Positions 26,046-29,878 of a DNA stretch of 64,000 nucleotides are shown here, piece after piece. This DNA comes from Streptococcus sp. VT 162. GTDB lineage: Bacteria; Bacillota; Bacilli; Lactobacillales; Streptococcaceae. Under the pieces are notes generated by a model. The model ran no database searches. It saw only the letters and a program-made list of their open reading frames with translations, and had not been told where the DNA came from. The translations under genes and the position numbers were made by a program. The stretch covers positions 1,302,001-1,366,000 of the forward strand of contig CP007628.2 in the NCBI GenBank assembly GCA_000688775.2. The letters are read 5' to 3'. Each line of letters opens with the position of its first letter. Position 1 is the stretch's first letter.

Positions 26046-26070
26046 AAAAGGGAACCGAAGTCCCCTTTCT
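26046..26070 (-). terminator. Terminator of the NCS1 permease operon
   Basis: Minus-strand AAGGGGAC-TTCG-GTTCCCTT hairpin with a UUCG tetraloop and following T residues. Confidence 0.85.
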
Positions 26071-26072
26071 TC

Positions 26073-27500
26073 TTAAATCGTAATAGTGTCTCGATCTTTT
26101 ATCATATAACGTTTCAGAGGGCTAAGACTAGCTAGCCAGTATAGTAAACCACCGAATAGCGCAGTAAATCCGCTACCAGTTGTGATTAAAAAGATTGGAC
26201 TTTGAATTTGTGCAGTTACAGGATTGTAGACAAAAAGTACCGCTACCAATAAGGAGATAAATACGCAAGACAAGCCAACTAAGTTAAATCCTTTAGTAAA
26301 TTCGTAGGCGTCATGCCCTTCAAGGAAATAGGCTGAACGCAAGTCGAGTTTTCGTTTTCTTAAGATAAAATAGTCGACAACAATCATACCAATAATTGGC
26401 CCCTGAATATAGGCGGCTAGGGAGATGAAGGATCCGAAATACTCTTCTACTCCTCCCCAGATAGTGAGTAGACTCACATAAACCATGGCAATCCAAACCA
26501 TTAGTTTATAGCTTACTTTTGGCATCCCGCTTTTGACAATCATACAGTTCACGTACGATCCAGTCCCCTGGGTTCCAATATTGGCAAAGGCTACTAGTAG
26601 TAGACTTAAGAGAGCAAAGGCTGGGGTGCTTAGAGTTGATAGCATAGTTGTTGGATCACTTTCATAAACACCTGTTTTGACAAACATGGCTAGAGCCATG
26701 ACTCCACCAGTCGCAACGAAGAATGGAGCCACAACTCCGTATGATAAGGCTGTAGCCCAATAACCACTGCGTTCTGATTTTGCTAAACGTGGTAAAACCA
26801 ATGCCTGTGTAGACCAAGAGAAAGCAAAGGCAACATTTCCTTCTCCAGAGAGCATGAAGCGTTCTAATGGCGTCAAATCTCCTTGGGTGGCTGGTTGGAT
26901 GTTCATAATATCCGTTATAGGAACGGCGACAAAGCAGATTCCAACGATGATGAGACCGACAATCAATAAGGCGATAACCAAGAAGCGATTGGTCCATTTA
27001 ATCACTTCCGGGCCTCCAAGAGCAATGAGAGTCCCAAGAAGAACACAGAGGGTACCAAGAATAGGTGCCCATATTCCCTTGTCCAAACCAAGACCAAAAT
27101 TATTTGCCAAATGAATCATGGAACTGGCAAAAAGATTGGCCGCAACAGCATACCATCCAAAGTTAGCCAAGCTAATAATGGTTGATAACAAGGCTACACC
27201 TCTTTTTCCCAGAACAGCTCTCAACCAAATCCACAAATCAATTCCATACTTAACTGCAAACAAAATAGGGAGACATTCAATAAAGACCCAGATAATGTTA
27301 AAGCTAAAAATATTTACCAACATTTGATTAAAGGTCAAATATTGAGCTACATAAGCCCCTTGGGTATAACACCAAGTAGCAATGGCAAAACCACTTGTCG
27401 ATAGAAAGAGATCCCAGAAAGAATACTGACGATCCTTATTGGTCATGGGAACAATTCCTGTTATGGTTTCTTGTTGGATATAGTCATTCATTTTAGACAT
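26073..27500 (-). CDS. NCS1-family permease (cytosine/purine/thiamine/allantoin type)
   Basis: A 475-residue protein with about 12 membrane spans. The N-terminal RQYSFWDLFLSTSGFAIATW and the C-terminal GPIIGMIVVDYFILRKRKLD are typical NCS1 features. Known NCS1 substrates are nucleobases, hydantoins, thiamin and nicotinamide riboside, but this member is distant and cannot be assigned. It is the last gene of a three-gene operon, starting one base after the stop of a small membrane protein, with its own GGGAGGAATT ribosome binding site. The context suggests it imports the compound that the first gene's kinase and nucleotidyltransferase domains activate. Confidence 0.85.
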   Translation of the reverse strand: MSKMNDYIQQETITGIVPMTNKDRQYSFWDLFLSTSGFAIATWCYTQGAYVAQYLTFNQMLVNIFSFNIIWVFIECLPILFAVKYGIDLWIWLRAVLGKRGVALLSTIISLANFGWYAVAANLFASSMIHLANNFGLGLDKGIWAPILGTLCVLLGTLIALGGPEVIKWTNRFLVIALLIVGLIIVGICFVAVPITDIMNIQPATQGDLTPLERFMLSGEGNVAFAFSWSTQALVLPRLAKSERSGYWATALSYGVVAPFFVATGGVMALAMFVKTGVYESDPTTMLSTLSTPAFALLSLLLVAFANIGTQGTGSYVNCMIVKSGMPKVSYKLMVWIAMVYVSLLTIWGGVEEYFGSFISLAAYIQGPIIGMIVVDYFILRKRKLDLRSAYFLEGHDAYEFTKGFNLVGLSCVFISLLVAVLFVYNPVTAQIQSPIFLITTGSGFTALFGGLLYWLASLSPLKRYMIKDRDTITI

Positions 27501-27501
27501 G

Positions 27502-27687
27502 TTATTGAATTCCTCCCGTCATTGCTAAGATAATCAAAACAAGGTTGATTAGGACTATGGAGATGATTAAAATGAAATCACTTTTTAGGAAGGGTTGAAC
27601 AAACTCGTAGTTTGGTGACTCCATTTCTTCCAATCTTCTCTTTGTTTCAGCTGCTACTAATTCTTCAATTTCGGATGTCGTTTTCAT
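27502..27687 (-). CDS. Small single-span membrane protein, possible permease subunit
   Basis: A 61-residue protein starting at ATG 27687 (MKTTSEIEELVAAETKRR), with an acidic/amphipathic N-terminus and one C-terminal membrane span (SDFILIISIVLINLVLIILA). A longer open frame to 27786 runs inside the upstream gene and lacks a ribosome binding site, whereas ATG 27687 follows GGAGGAAAAC closely. The start is one base from the upstream stop and the stop one base from the permease start. A comparable case is MetS, a small single-span subunit needed by the methionine transporter MetP in Corynebacterium, so a transporter subunit role is a reasonable inference. I do not recognise a named family. Confidence 0.75.
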   Translation of the reverse strand: MKTTSEIEELVAAETKRRLEEMESPNYEFVQPFLKSDFILIISIVLINLVLIILAMTGGIQ

Positions 27688-27688
27688 C

Positions 27689-29467
27689 TTAGTTTTCCTC
27701 CAAATACAAGTCAAGGGCCAGTTGTCCATATTGTTTGGTATAGCGATACCAGATGTAAAGAAATTCACCAACTGGTTTTCCGACACTCTCCTGGAACAAA
27801 GCCCACAAGAACCAGTAATATGAGGTCACTGCTACATAAGCCAAATAGTGACGTTTGGTTTTCTTATCTGGTACTTCTTGTAGATACAGTTCCAGTACTT
27901 TTTCAGCATCCTCTACGGTATAATTGGAACACGCGATAAAGGTGCCCAAATCTCCTGCTGGATCTCCCATTCCAGAATATTCCCAATCAATCAAGCTCAT
28001 TTCGCCTGCTTCATTTAACAAAAAATTAGGACTATAGGAATCTCCATGACAAAGGACAACCTGTTTCGAATCATTCTGTAAATTGTTTTTGAGAATTGAG
28101 ACAGTTTTATCCAATTCCTCGAGACCATCAAACTCAAATCGATTTCTAGCCTTCAATTTTTCTCTAAAATCATCAATCCCTTCAAATTGGTCAAAGGAAT
28201 GTCCCGTTTTTTCTCCAGATTGGTGTAACCGTCTCAAGAGGTCCATTGCTTGTGCCACATCATCCCAATTATCATAATCCAGTTGCTTAGCATTAGGAAT
28301 AAATTCTGAAATTTTCCAGCCCTCATCCTTGTTCATAGCTACAAAGGTACGGTCAATCTTTAATTTTGCAGCAATTTCCATAGAAGCTGCTTCACTAGCT
28401 CGGTCGATATAATTTTCTGTTCCCCTACCCGGATGACGGTAAACATATCTTTTCCCTAGACAGTCAAATGAAAATGATGTGTTGGTTAATCCATCTTTTA
28501 GTGGTTTGATATTGACAATATCTGAAGCCACACACTTTAATGTCTTACAGATATTATCAATAATGGCCGAATCTGCATTTACCAAATAACGTTCATCAAA
28601 TTGACGTAGTTCATCTAGTGAATCAAATTCTTTAACAATATCCGCTGAATAGTGGCGCGCTTCTAAAAGGAGTTCTTTGACATGGCGACCATAGTAATCC
28701 TCCCAAAGCTGTTCCCGATAAGGTTCGTGTTTAAACTCGGTTTCTAAAACTTCCTTGAATTTCTCGCTGAATGCGCGGTCGAAATAAACGTGTCCCACCA
28801 TGGCCCAAGTATTTTCTCCACCAATCTGGATATCAATAATCGTGTGATTCGAATCCTCTATAGCACAATATTCGTCCGTTTGACCTTCTGCAAATATCGT
28901 CGAGTAGTAACCTCTATAAATATATTGCTCAAAAGGATTTTCCACAAAATAATTATCTGATGAACAAATATACGTGTTGGAAAGTTGATCTTTAACCAAC
29001 ATAAGAGACGAACAGTTATTGTATTTGTAGTAATCATTATTCACTACAATTTTTACACCAAACTTCTCTGCAAGATAGAACATTTTTTCTTGAAGATAGC
29101 CTACAATAACGGTTATATCTTCTATTCCTGCTTCTTGCAGCTGTCTGATTTCCCTCTCTATCAAGCGTTCACCCTTGACTTGAAGTAATCCTTTGGGAAT
29201 CTCATAAGACAAAGGAGCAAAACGACTACTCATGCCAGCAGCCATTATAATGGCATTTTTTACTCGATAGGGTTCTAAAACTTTCTGGCCTAGTTCAGTT
29301 AAGTGAAGTTCCTCATCAACCCACTTCTCTTCTTTCAGTTTTTTCAATAATGTGTTAACTGTCCCTAAAGATAGGTCTAACTCTTCAGCTAACTGTCTCT
29401 GAGTAAAGGTCTTTTCTTTATGTATCAACATAAAACGCAAAAGTTTAAATTGTTTTTCTGTTAGCAT
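27689..29467 (-). CDS. Winged-helix / LicC-like nucleotidyltransferase / LicA-like choline kinase fusion
   Basis: A 592-residue three-part protein. Residues 1-65 are a winged helix-turn-helix (FTQRQLAEELDLSLGTVNTL). Residues about 70-290 form a LicC-type nucleotidyltransferase with AAGMSSRFAPLSYEIPKGLL, the NTP-binding and lysine signature. Residues about 310-592 resemble LicA/choline kinases, with the catalytic CHGDSYSPNFLL and metal-binding LIDWEYSGMGDPAGD. In lic pathways the kinase makes phosphocholine and the transferase CDP-choline for teichoic acid decoration; here both activities and a DNA-binding domain are fused. Choline, ethanolamine or another amino alcohol are all possible substrates. 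It heads an operon with a strong promoter and palindromic operator. Confidence 0.88.
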   Translation of the reverse strand: MLTEKQFKLLRFMLIHKEKTFTQRQLAEELDLSLGTVNTLLKKLKEEKWVDEELHLTELGQKVLEPYRVKNAIIMAAGMSSRFAPLSYEIPKGLLQVKGERLIEREIRQLQEAGIEDITVIVGYLQEKMFYLAEKFGVKIVVNNDYYKYNNCSSLMLVKDQLSNTYICSSDNYFVENPFEQYIYRGYYSTIFAEGQTDEYCAIEDSNHTIIDIQIGGENTWAMVGHVYFDRAFSEKFKEVLETEFKHEPYREQLWEDYYGRHVKELLLEARHYSADIVKEFDSLDELRQFDERYLVNADSAIIDNICKTLKCVASDIVNIKPLKDGLTNTSFSFDCLGKRYVYRHPGRGTENYIDRASEAASMEIAAKLKIDRTFVAMNKDEGWKISEFIPNAKQLDYDNWDDVAQAMDLLRRLHQSGEKTGHSFDQFEGIDDFREKLKARNRFEFDGLEELDKTVSILKNNLQNDSKQVVLCHGDSYSPNFLLNEAGEMSLIDWEYSGMGDPAGDLGTFIACSNYTVEDAEKVLELYLQEVPDKKTKRHYLAYVAVTSYYWFLWALFQESVGKPVGEFLYIWYRYTKQYGQLALDLYLEEN

Positions 29468-29497
29468 TCTTAGTCCTCCTGTTCAATTTTTTCTTAC

Positions 29498-29513
29498 TCA
29501 TATTATAATATGA
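29498..29513 (-). promoter_or_regulatory. 16-bp palindrome over the operon -10, candidate autoregulatory operator
   Basis: TCATATTATAATATGA, a perfect inverted repeat, covers the -10 hexamer of the fusion-gene operon. The winged-helix domain of the first gene is the obvious candidate to bind it. Confidence 0.55.
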
Positions 29514-29530
29514 ACAAAAAGGACTGTCAA
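29502..29530 (-). promoter_or_regulatory. Promoter of the licCA-like fusion operon
   Basis: TTGACA (29530-29525), 17-bp spacer and TATAAT (29507-29502): consensus hexamers at consensus spacing on the minus strand. Confidence 0.85.
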
Positions 29531-29593: not shown

Positions 29594-29622
29594 TAAAAGA
29601 GCTCCTTATTCTGGAGCCCTGA
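29594..29622 (-). terminator. Terminator upstream of the fusion operon
   Basis: Minus-strand GGGCTCC / GGAGCTC hairpin ending in CTCTTTTATTT. It would stop transcripts leaving the liv operon before the fusion-gene promoter. Confidence 0.6.
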
Positions 29623-29669
29623 AATATTTTATATTTTTGATAAGTAGTCGTATTAGGTGTCGCTTGGCT

Positions 29670-29878
29670 GCAATCCTTATCCGCCGACTAAAAAGGTCTC
29701 CCAGACTATAGAGGGATTACGTGCGCAATCTCCATCCACAACCTAAACTAGTCTCTCAGACTAGAGGAGAATTGCTTATGCAATCCTTATCCTCCGACTA
29801 AAAAGGTCCCCCGGACTATAGAGAGATTGCTTGCGCAATCCTTATCTACCGACTAAAAAGGTCCCCGGGACCTTTTTA
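29670..29878. repeat. Tandem array of a 55-bp repeat (about 3.8 copies)
   Basis: Units beginning with GCAATC start at 29670, 29725, 29780 and 29835, exactly 55 bases apart. Units 1, 3 and 4 share GCAATCCTTATC..CCGACTA and AAAAGGTC; unit 2 is diverged. Each contains a GGTC..GAC hairpin arm and ends in GATTGC-type sequence that is inverted relative to the next unit's GCAATC. The last unit merges with the livF terminator and stop codon. Confidence 0.85.

Follow-up and report, generated by a model that had tools for sequence, protein, structure and literature searches.

A three-gene Streptococcus operon joining a winged helix-LicC-LicA fusion to an NCS1 permease as a candidate autoregulated module for amino-alcohol activation, probably of ethanolamine

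Among described systems, the LicABC-LicD pathway of S. pneumoniae and H. influenzae comes closest to the locus reported here, and NadR, which consists of a helix-turn-helix, a nicotinamide mononucleotide adenylyltransferase and a ribosylnicotinamide kinase, offers a precedent for a regulator, a nucleotidyltransferase and a kinase in one chain. A LicC-LicA fusion in a single chain is described in Treponema denticola (LicCA; Kent et al., 2004, as cited in PMC8590670; here and below, papers given by PMC number are cited from excerpts). We analyzed a 64,000-nucleotide stretch of Streptococcus sp. VT 162 (contig CP007628.2, positions 1,302,001 to 1,366,000; hereafter the window) and studied in it an operon of three minus-strand genes with gaps of one base each (open reading frame (ORF) list): a fusion gene (29467-27689, 592 amino acids) combining a winged helix, a LicC-type cytidylyltransferase and a LicA-type kinase, a gene for a 61-amino-acid membrane protein with a single helix (27687-27502) and a gene for an NCS1-family permease (27500-26073, 475 amino acids). 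The ORFs and Pfam bear out this layout as given by an earlier reading of the window from its letters alone (hereafter the sequence-only reading). The locus shares with LicABC-LicD its LicA- and LicC-type domains, whose catalytic residues are conserved, and the occurrence of relatives beside LicD; unlike that system, both enzymes are here in one polypeptide, a winged helix and an operator have been added, the NCS1 permease and the small protein stand in place of LicB, and the residues surrounding both substrate pockets are altered. NadR differs in its pathway, enzyme families and operator, and DNA binding by the fusion is a prediction.

We consider it reasonably probable that the operon encodes an autoregulated module that imports, phosphorylates and CMP-activates its substrate, most likely ethanolamine, and feeds LicD enzymes. 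The substrate, an amino alcohol and most likely ethanolamine, would enter through the NCS1 permease and its one-helix partner. It would then be phosphorylated by the C-terminal LicA-type domain, and the middle LicC-type domain would make cytidine diphosphate (CDP)-ethanolamine (or CDP-choline) for LicD-type phosphotransferases, encoded elsewhere in the genome, that serve the teichoic-acid pathway or related polysaccharides. The winged helix would bind TGTTCA-N25-TGAACA over the operon's own -10 box and repress the operon, with repression presumably set by the occupancy of the enzyme domains in a NadR-like logic. For the full version of this proposal, a dedicated autoregulated CDP-ethanolamine pathway in which an NCS1 permease that requires a single-helix subunit and a trifunctional repressor-kinase-cytidylyltransferase lead to phosphoethanolamine on teichoic acids alongside the choline pathway, we see about even chances. 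The sequence-only reading had proposed an import-phosphorylate-activate module for a small amino alcohol, which our results support; it had left open the choice between ethanolamine and choline, where the evidence now favours ethanolamine.

The fusion matched MarR_2 (winged helix, about residues 1-65), NTP_transf_3 (LicC-type cytidylyltransferase, about residues 66-295) and both Choline_kinase and APH (LicA-type kinase, about residues 305-592), all above the Pfam cut-off. Its nearest solved structure by sequence was pneumococcal LicC (1jyk, E-value 9e-39, residues 66-292), followed by 3dxq and LicA 4r77 (both 1.4e-24, the LicA alignment covering residues 309-572), and a Foldseek search with an AlphaFold model built from a 37-sequence alignment (predicted local distance difference test (pLDDT) 88, predicted template modelling score 0.61) placed LicC 1jyk at rank 1 and the LicA-choline structure 4r7b at rank 2. 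A thiamine kinase identity was rejected, the NCBIfam match lying far under its cut-off (55.7 vs 299 bits). The catalytic residues, whose alignment the sequence-only reading had put forward as a test, were intact, being invariant or almost so across the 37 aligned relatives.

The cytidylyltransferase domain thus resembles LicC in sequence, fold and Mg-binding acidic residues: in the 1jyk alignment D171 and D282 are retained (LicC D107 and D218, which we take to bind metal). W136 and Y190, presumably part of the phosphocholine pocket of LicC, align with Y200 and L254. The position of Glu216, a metal-coordinating residue of LicC, is E280, and the phosphocholine pocket of S. pneumoniae LicC (Spn-LicC) is not retained, its residues D105 and D192 aligning with S169 and E256 (PMC6697681). 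In the kinase domain, sequence alignment placed the LicA catalytic and cage residues Asp176, Tyr197, Trp251 and Trp254 at D476, Y497, W552 and W555, while the other pocket residues (the pocket being given as Y197, W251, W254, Y268, V178, D176 and E213; PMC4364537) changed from Y268 to F569, from V178 to Y478 and from E213 to C513. The Brenner-motif and choline-kinase residues D476, N481, D494, Y497, W552 and W555 are all retained, so that catalytic residues, aromatic cage and fold agree with a LicA-type choline kinase. The full motif (I/L/V)X2ID(FWY)E(YF)X3NX3(FYW)DX6E with the rim residue Glu213 is not conserved, N201, W205 and E213 being replaced by G501, G505 and C513. As most EamA-paired fusions described below deviate at the same positions, this deviation is no substrate marker by itself, and Glu213-to-Cys, common to EamA-paired fusions, was dropped as a candidate marker.

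The permease matched Transp_cyt_pur (PF02133) with 69.1 bits against a cut-off of 23.5 and stayed under the cut-off of the NCBIfam ncs1 subfamily (62.8 vs 353.1). Foldseek with its model (pLDDT 84) gave CodB (7qoa) and Mhp1 as top matches; the permease shares their fold and Pfam family and differs from them in its low identity (15-21% in structural alignments), its conserved 61-amino-acid partner and its tie to amino-alcohol activation. The partner, counted here from an ATG downstream of the start of the mechanical ORF, has a single hydrophobic segment (mean Kyte-Doolittle value of 3.2 across 19 residues) and matched no Pfam or NCBIfam family. It adjoins NCS1 in 17/17 loci (15 through clustering and 2 more through tblastn) and also in G435, L167 and L226. 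We therefore describe it as a putative small subunit of the permease; the pair would offer a possible two-part NCS1 transporter.

Among 98 Streptococcus genomes, the fusion (at least 89% identity), the small protein and the permease were each found in the same 8, at the same position, S. oralis DD15 and CR140 among them, and an 89% copy was found at a different position in Streptococcus sp. M334. The co-occurrence that the sequence-only reading had asked to see is therefore present. It had also supposed an insertion between acuB and livF (its own labels, which were not confirmed by family search), and these neighbours are indeed adjacent in 10/10 checked genomes without the module. A chance fusion or an assembly artefact was ruled out, since all three genes recur together in 8 Streptococcus genomes and in other phyla as well. 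Nor is such a fusion unusual: out of 7995 scored candidates, 3497 proteins were similar at E<=0.001, 119 of the 120 relatives listed combine the Pfam domain for a nucleotidyltransferase with that for choline kinase, and the Treponema LicCA is in print (PMC8590670). The width of this family, the operator and the separate licA- and licC-type genes of the same genome were all absent from the sequence-only reading. The permease was detected at E<=1e-60 in 5 of 398 phylum genomes drawn, its own genome counted. The three-gene unit is present in G435 (permease 71% identity) with a shortened fusion N-terminus, and neither a Pfam winged-helix match nor an exact operator was found there; three further genomes with distant permeases (32-48% identity) gave neither fusion nor small-protein matches. 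Distant NCS1 permeases lie with MTTB methyltransferases and corrinoid proteins at L160:2785-8699 and L161:6110-11469, L161 also carrying a dimethylamine methyltransferase.

Beyond the genus, we retained 80 of the 555 genome loci confirmed and read them together with 9 others. From these 89 loci we dropped L089, L110 and L125 (no fusion ORF) and L121 (a 361-amino-acid piece), leaving 85 loci which, together with the window, gave 89 rows. The transporter beside the fusion was NCS1 in 20 rows, EamA (EamA/DMT) in 21, EutH in 4, BCCT in 4 and ABC in 3 (defined by an ABC solute-binding protein next door), with none recognised in 37; LicB is among the top matches of an EamA protein described elsewhere (PMC12155760). 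NCS1 pairing arises at scattered places in the tree of fusions, requiring 4 changes, of which supported branches force 3. On this pattern NCS1 and the small protein behave together as an import cassette that can be exchanged. In a Spirochaetota genome (G951, C71:15638-20949), an NCS1 module (L226) and a BCCT module (L241) lie a few kilobases apart. LicC-LicA fusions being known, what is new is the exchange of transporters, the constancy of the small protein with NCS1, the conserved operator, the kinase residue signature and the LicD neighbours. Nothing on the NCS1 cassette, the small protein or the operator was found among the titles and abstract starts listed from the open-licence literature, and a term search of a 2023 survey of phosphorylcholine pathways gave no mention of NCS1, BCCT or "fusion" (PMC10434233).

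The promoter of the operon (29530-29502, minus strand) reads TTGACA-17-TATAAT, a 12/12 match to the consensus that confirms the single strong promoter claimed before. Its -10 box and start region are spanned by the operator TGTTCA-N25-TGAACA (29480-29516, minus strand; half-sites 29511-29516 and 29480-29485). This pair of half-sites about 25 bases apart was first spotted upstream of NCS1-type operons. Allowing spacers of 14-40 and at most one mismatch, we found it upstream of 65/82 fusions with a winged helix, against 0/7 without one and 22/610 other genes; 14 of these 22 control matches were also spaced 24-25 and are possibly the same sites viewed from neighbouring genes. It precedes 17/20 NCS1-paired fusions and 48/62 of the other classes, which had not suggested the motif, its spacing is 24-26 in 63 of the 65, and it was seen in loci of Bacillota, Actinomycetota and Spirochaetota. 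Three of the 20 NCS1 rows do not have it immediately upstream of the fusion: in L084 and L120 the small-protein gene comes first and the operator precedes that gene, and none was found upstream in L075. The exact pattern occurs once in the 2.04-Mb window genome, at the site above, the reversed-pattern control giving 0. Across 24 genomes the exact pattern was counted 40 times and the reversed control 11 times, so that some sites elsewhere are due to chance, and 4/24 genomes have none; in Berryella, with two fusions, there are two exact sites, one at each. At the -10 box, 16 bp form a perfect palindrome; this was considered as the conserved site and discarded, being retained, among the relatives compared, only in the close L034; the conserved regulatory feature is the wider pair. 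Because this operator is conserved, the winged helix, already proposed as a regulator, is probably the regulator of the fusion's own operon. The simplest reading is that the fusion protein would bind this site and repress its own operon in response to an effector, which would make it a regulator-enzyme with a precise operator.

Residues of the fusion vary with the neighbouring transporter. NCS1- and EutH-paired fusions typically have Y200, Y478, P480, Y550, Y551 and W573; EamA- and ABC-paired fusions typically have W, F, L, W, C and Y at these positions, and the BCCT-type clade has W, V/N, D, F, L and M. In E. coli and Salmonella, EutH transports ethanolamine (PMC9397018). Y551 was found in 19/20 NCS1 and 4/4 EutH rows and in 0/28 EamA, BCCT and ABC rows, and residue 551 was consistent in 5/5 independent contrasts, which gives the lowest sign-test value attainable, 0.0625. 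From a held-out set of 29 Coriobacteriia and 3 Bacillota loci we excluded five near copies, L177, L189 and L194 (no recognised transporter) and L193 (no residue 551); in the remaining 23, position 551 was C in 15/15 EamA, Y in 5/6 EutH (one H) and Y in 2/2 NCS1 loci, the signature thus holding in 22/23. One NCS1-paired fusion groups in a supported clade with five EutH-paired ones. In Spirochaetota, where 9 of 17 matches were read, 8/8 BCCT-paired fusions had L551 and the 1/1 NCS1-paired fusion had Y551; L241 was set to BCCT by its position between the NCS1 gene of the preceding module and a downstream BCCT gene, its NCS1 score being the higher. Five Spirochaetota genomes, which may belong to the T. 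denticola group, have BCCT and L551, in contrast to NCS1 and Y551 here.

Teichoic-acid choline serves as the anchor of choline-binding proteins (PMC4364537). We counted Choline_bind_3 repeats (PF19127 only, E<=1e-6) in 50 genomes and found them in 4/22 Y551 genomes outside Streptococcus (11 NCS1, 4 EutH and 7 without recognised transporter), 9/13 C551 genomes and 10/10 L551 genomes (Fisher 2e-5 for Y551 against C551 and L551 together and 0.004 against C551 alone, the relatives not being independent). Two Streptococcus genomes (L070, 34 matches; L071, 15) and the intermediates L080 (19 matches), L085 and L118 (0) were set apart from this count.

On this evidence ethanolamine is a moderately likely substrate and choline a rather unlikely one, and several points weigh against ethanolamine. 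Column 551 was picked post hoc among 592, of which 2 fit the three nearest contrasts; with five contrasts p<0.05 is out of reach, and the loci of the held-out set are related to one another. H551 occurs in L070_9077 (NCS1), L169 (EutH) and the EamA rows L085 and L118, and clear choline-binding repeats occur in the Y551 genomes L076 (an NCS1-paired Oribacterium, 33 matches), L105, L079 and L143, as do choline-binding proteins together with Y551 in L117. NCS1 relatives at 31-33% identity lie within gene clusters for MTTB, dimethylamine methyltransferase and corrinoid proteins, which suggests methylated amines as their substrates. The aromatic cage of choline kinase is retained, the relatives that have been characterised act on choline, phosphocholine is a component of S. 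oralis cell walls (PMC4649388, PMC2444020), and all 28 Oralis-cluster strains tested contained it (PMC2444020). The same machine might thus handle choline, as a second high-affinity or differently regulated route that backs licABC and uses the same LicD enzymes. We hold this unlikely: separate licA- and licC-type genes are present in 8/8 module genomes, the window genome included, which would leave another choline route redundant; the kinase signature groups with EutH-paired and not with EamA- or BCCT-paired fusions; choline-binding repeats are few in Y551 genomes; and the spirochaete mentioned above keeps its NCS1 module beside a BCCT module.

Where the product would be used is indicated by LicD genes. 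The ORF list has none inside the operon, and none adjoins the module in the window, which is a further point against the proposal. Of the four LicD matches of the window genome, three fall in the teichoic-acid cluster and the fourth in a cluster resembling a capsule locus. From the missing LicD the sequence-only reading had gone on to a possible new acceptor: the absence holds for the operon and is local, and the new acceptor is not needed, as the three-LicD cluster could take the product. Four relatives (L069, L071, L074 and L158) have LicD beside the NCS1-type module, and L069, L071 and L074 also have TacF-like flippases. Two modules of Streptococcus sp. 263_SSPC come after homologues of the window genome's teichoic-acid cluster (LicD 75%, glycosyltransferase 63%, LicD-ligase 73%, flippase 52% and another LicD 78%), in M334 (L069) the module is flanked by two LicD genes and a flippase gene 88% identical to that of the window genome's cluster, and in Parvimonas and G435 it is downstream of LicD and glycosyltransferase genes. 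The names LicD3, LicD4, TacF and mecA for the window genome's cluster were given by layout (cf. PMC4649388, PMC4863584), with no named match. That a LicD is required within the operon was ruled out, none being there, and an extra LicD outside the teichoic-acid cluster does not track the module, three of the 8 module genomes (G007, G032 and G034) having only three LicD matches. The M334 module (L069:5637-11055) has ISL3-family transposase fragments on both sides, inside the LicD/flippase region, and a second flippase beside it is 46% identical to the window genome's TacF-like one.

The CDP-amino alcohol might instead enter membrane phospholipid (phosphatidylethanolamine or phosphatidylcholine), as the LicCA of T. 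denticola supplies phosphatidylcholine synthesis (PMC8590670); with LicD beside the NCS1-type module in four relatives, in three of them with a TacF-like flippase, we think this very unlikely, CDP-alcohol phosphotransferases not having been searched for. If LicD decoration with ethanolamine is correct, the module would provide a genetic basis for cell walls with ethanolamine for choline. S. mitis SK598 has ethanolamine replacing choline, the ethanolamine C-polysaccharide of SK598 and SK601 would need CDP-ethanolamine, which the module could supply, and no gene source for it was seen in the excerpts of these papers (PMC2444020, PMC4963390, PMC8544892), which makes the operon a concrete candidate for the source of ethanolamine in S. 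mitis-type cell walls. Given the wall of SK598 and the 2700-fold preference of Spn-LicC for phosphocholine over phosphoethanolamine (PMC6697681), a dedicated enzyme would make sense. In pneumococcus, replacing teichoic-acid choline by ethanolamine blocks autolysis and lowers transformation (PMC4364537).

A different amine or alcohol (N-methylated ethanolamines or aminopropanol), or activation of 2-aminoethylphosphonate, is quite unlikely in our view. NCS1 transporters have diverse substrates (Pfam description), the LicC relatives PntC use aminoethylphosphonate (PMC6697681), and one NCS1-type module (L073:4381-8776) lies two genes downstream of a phosphoenolpyruvate (PEP) mutase-cytidylyltransferase gene. 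An intact fused kinase would be superfluous for a phosphonate, and this PEP mutase was the single such neighbour seen, no systematic search for phosphonate genes having been made.

Behind the permease gene, a UUCG hairpin (26069-26046, minus strand; -15.5 kcal/mol, z -3.7 with outer pairing) is a probable terminator with a weak U tail. The single terminator of the sequence-only reading therefore stands as a hairpin; its tail is weak, and it is absent from the output of a simple terminator scan of the window. In 4/8 module genomes (L035, L036, L037 and L038) a second NCS1 gene, 92-93% identical to the first, follows in tandem with a truncated small-protein copy, so that the second NCS1 copies of this clade are without an intact small protein; short C-terminal remnants of the fusion are visible in L037 and L038. 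Between the operon promoter and livF, the window carries several short repeated hairpin-like units (29600-29870).

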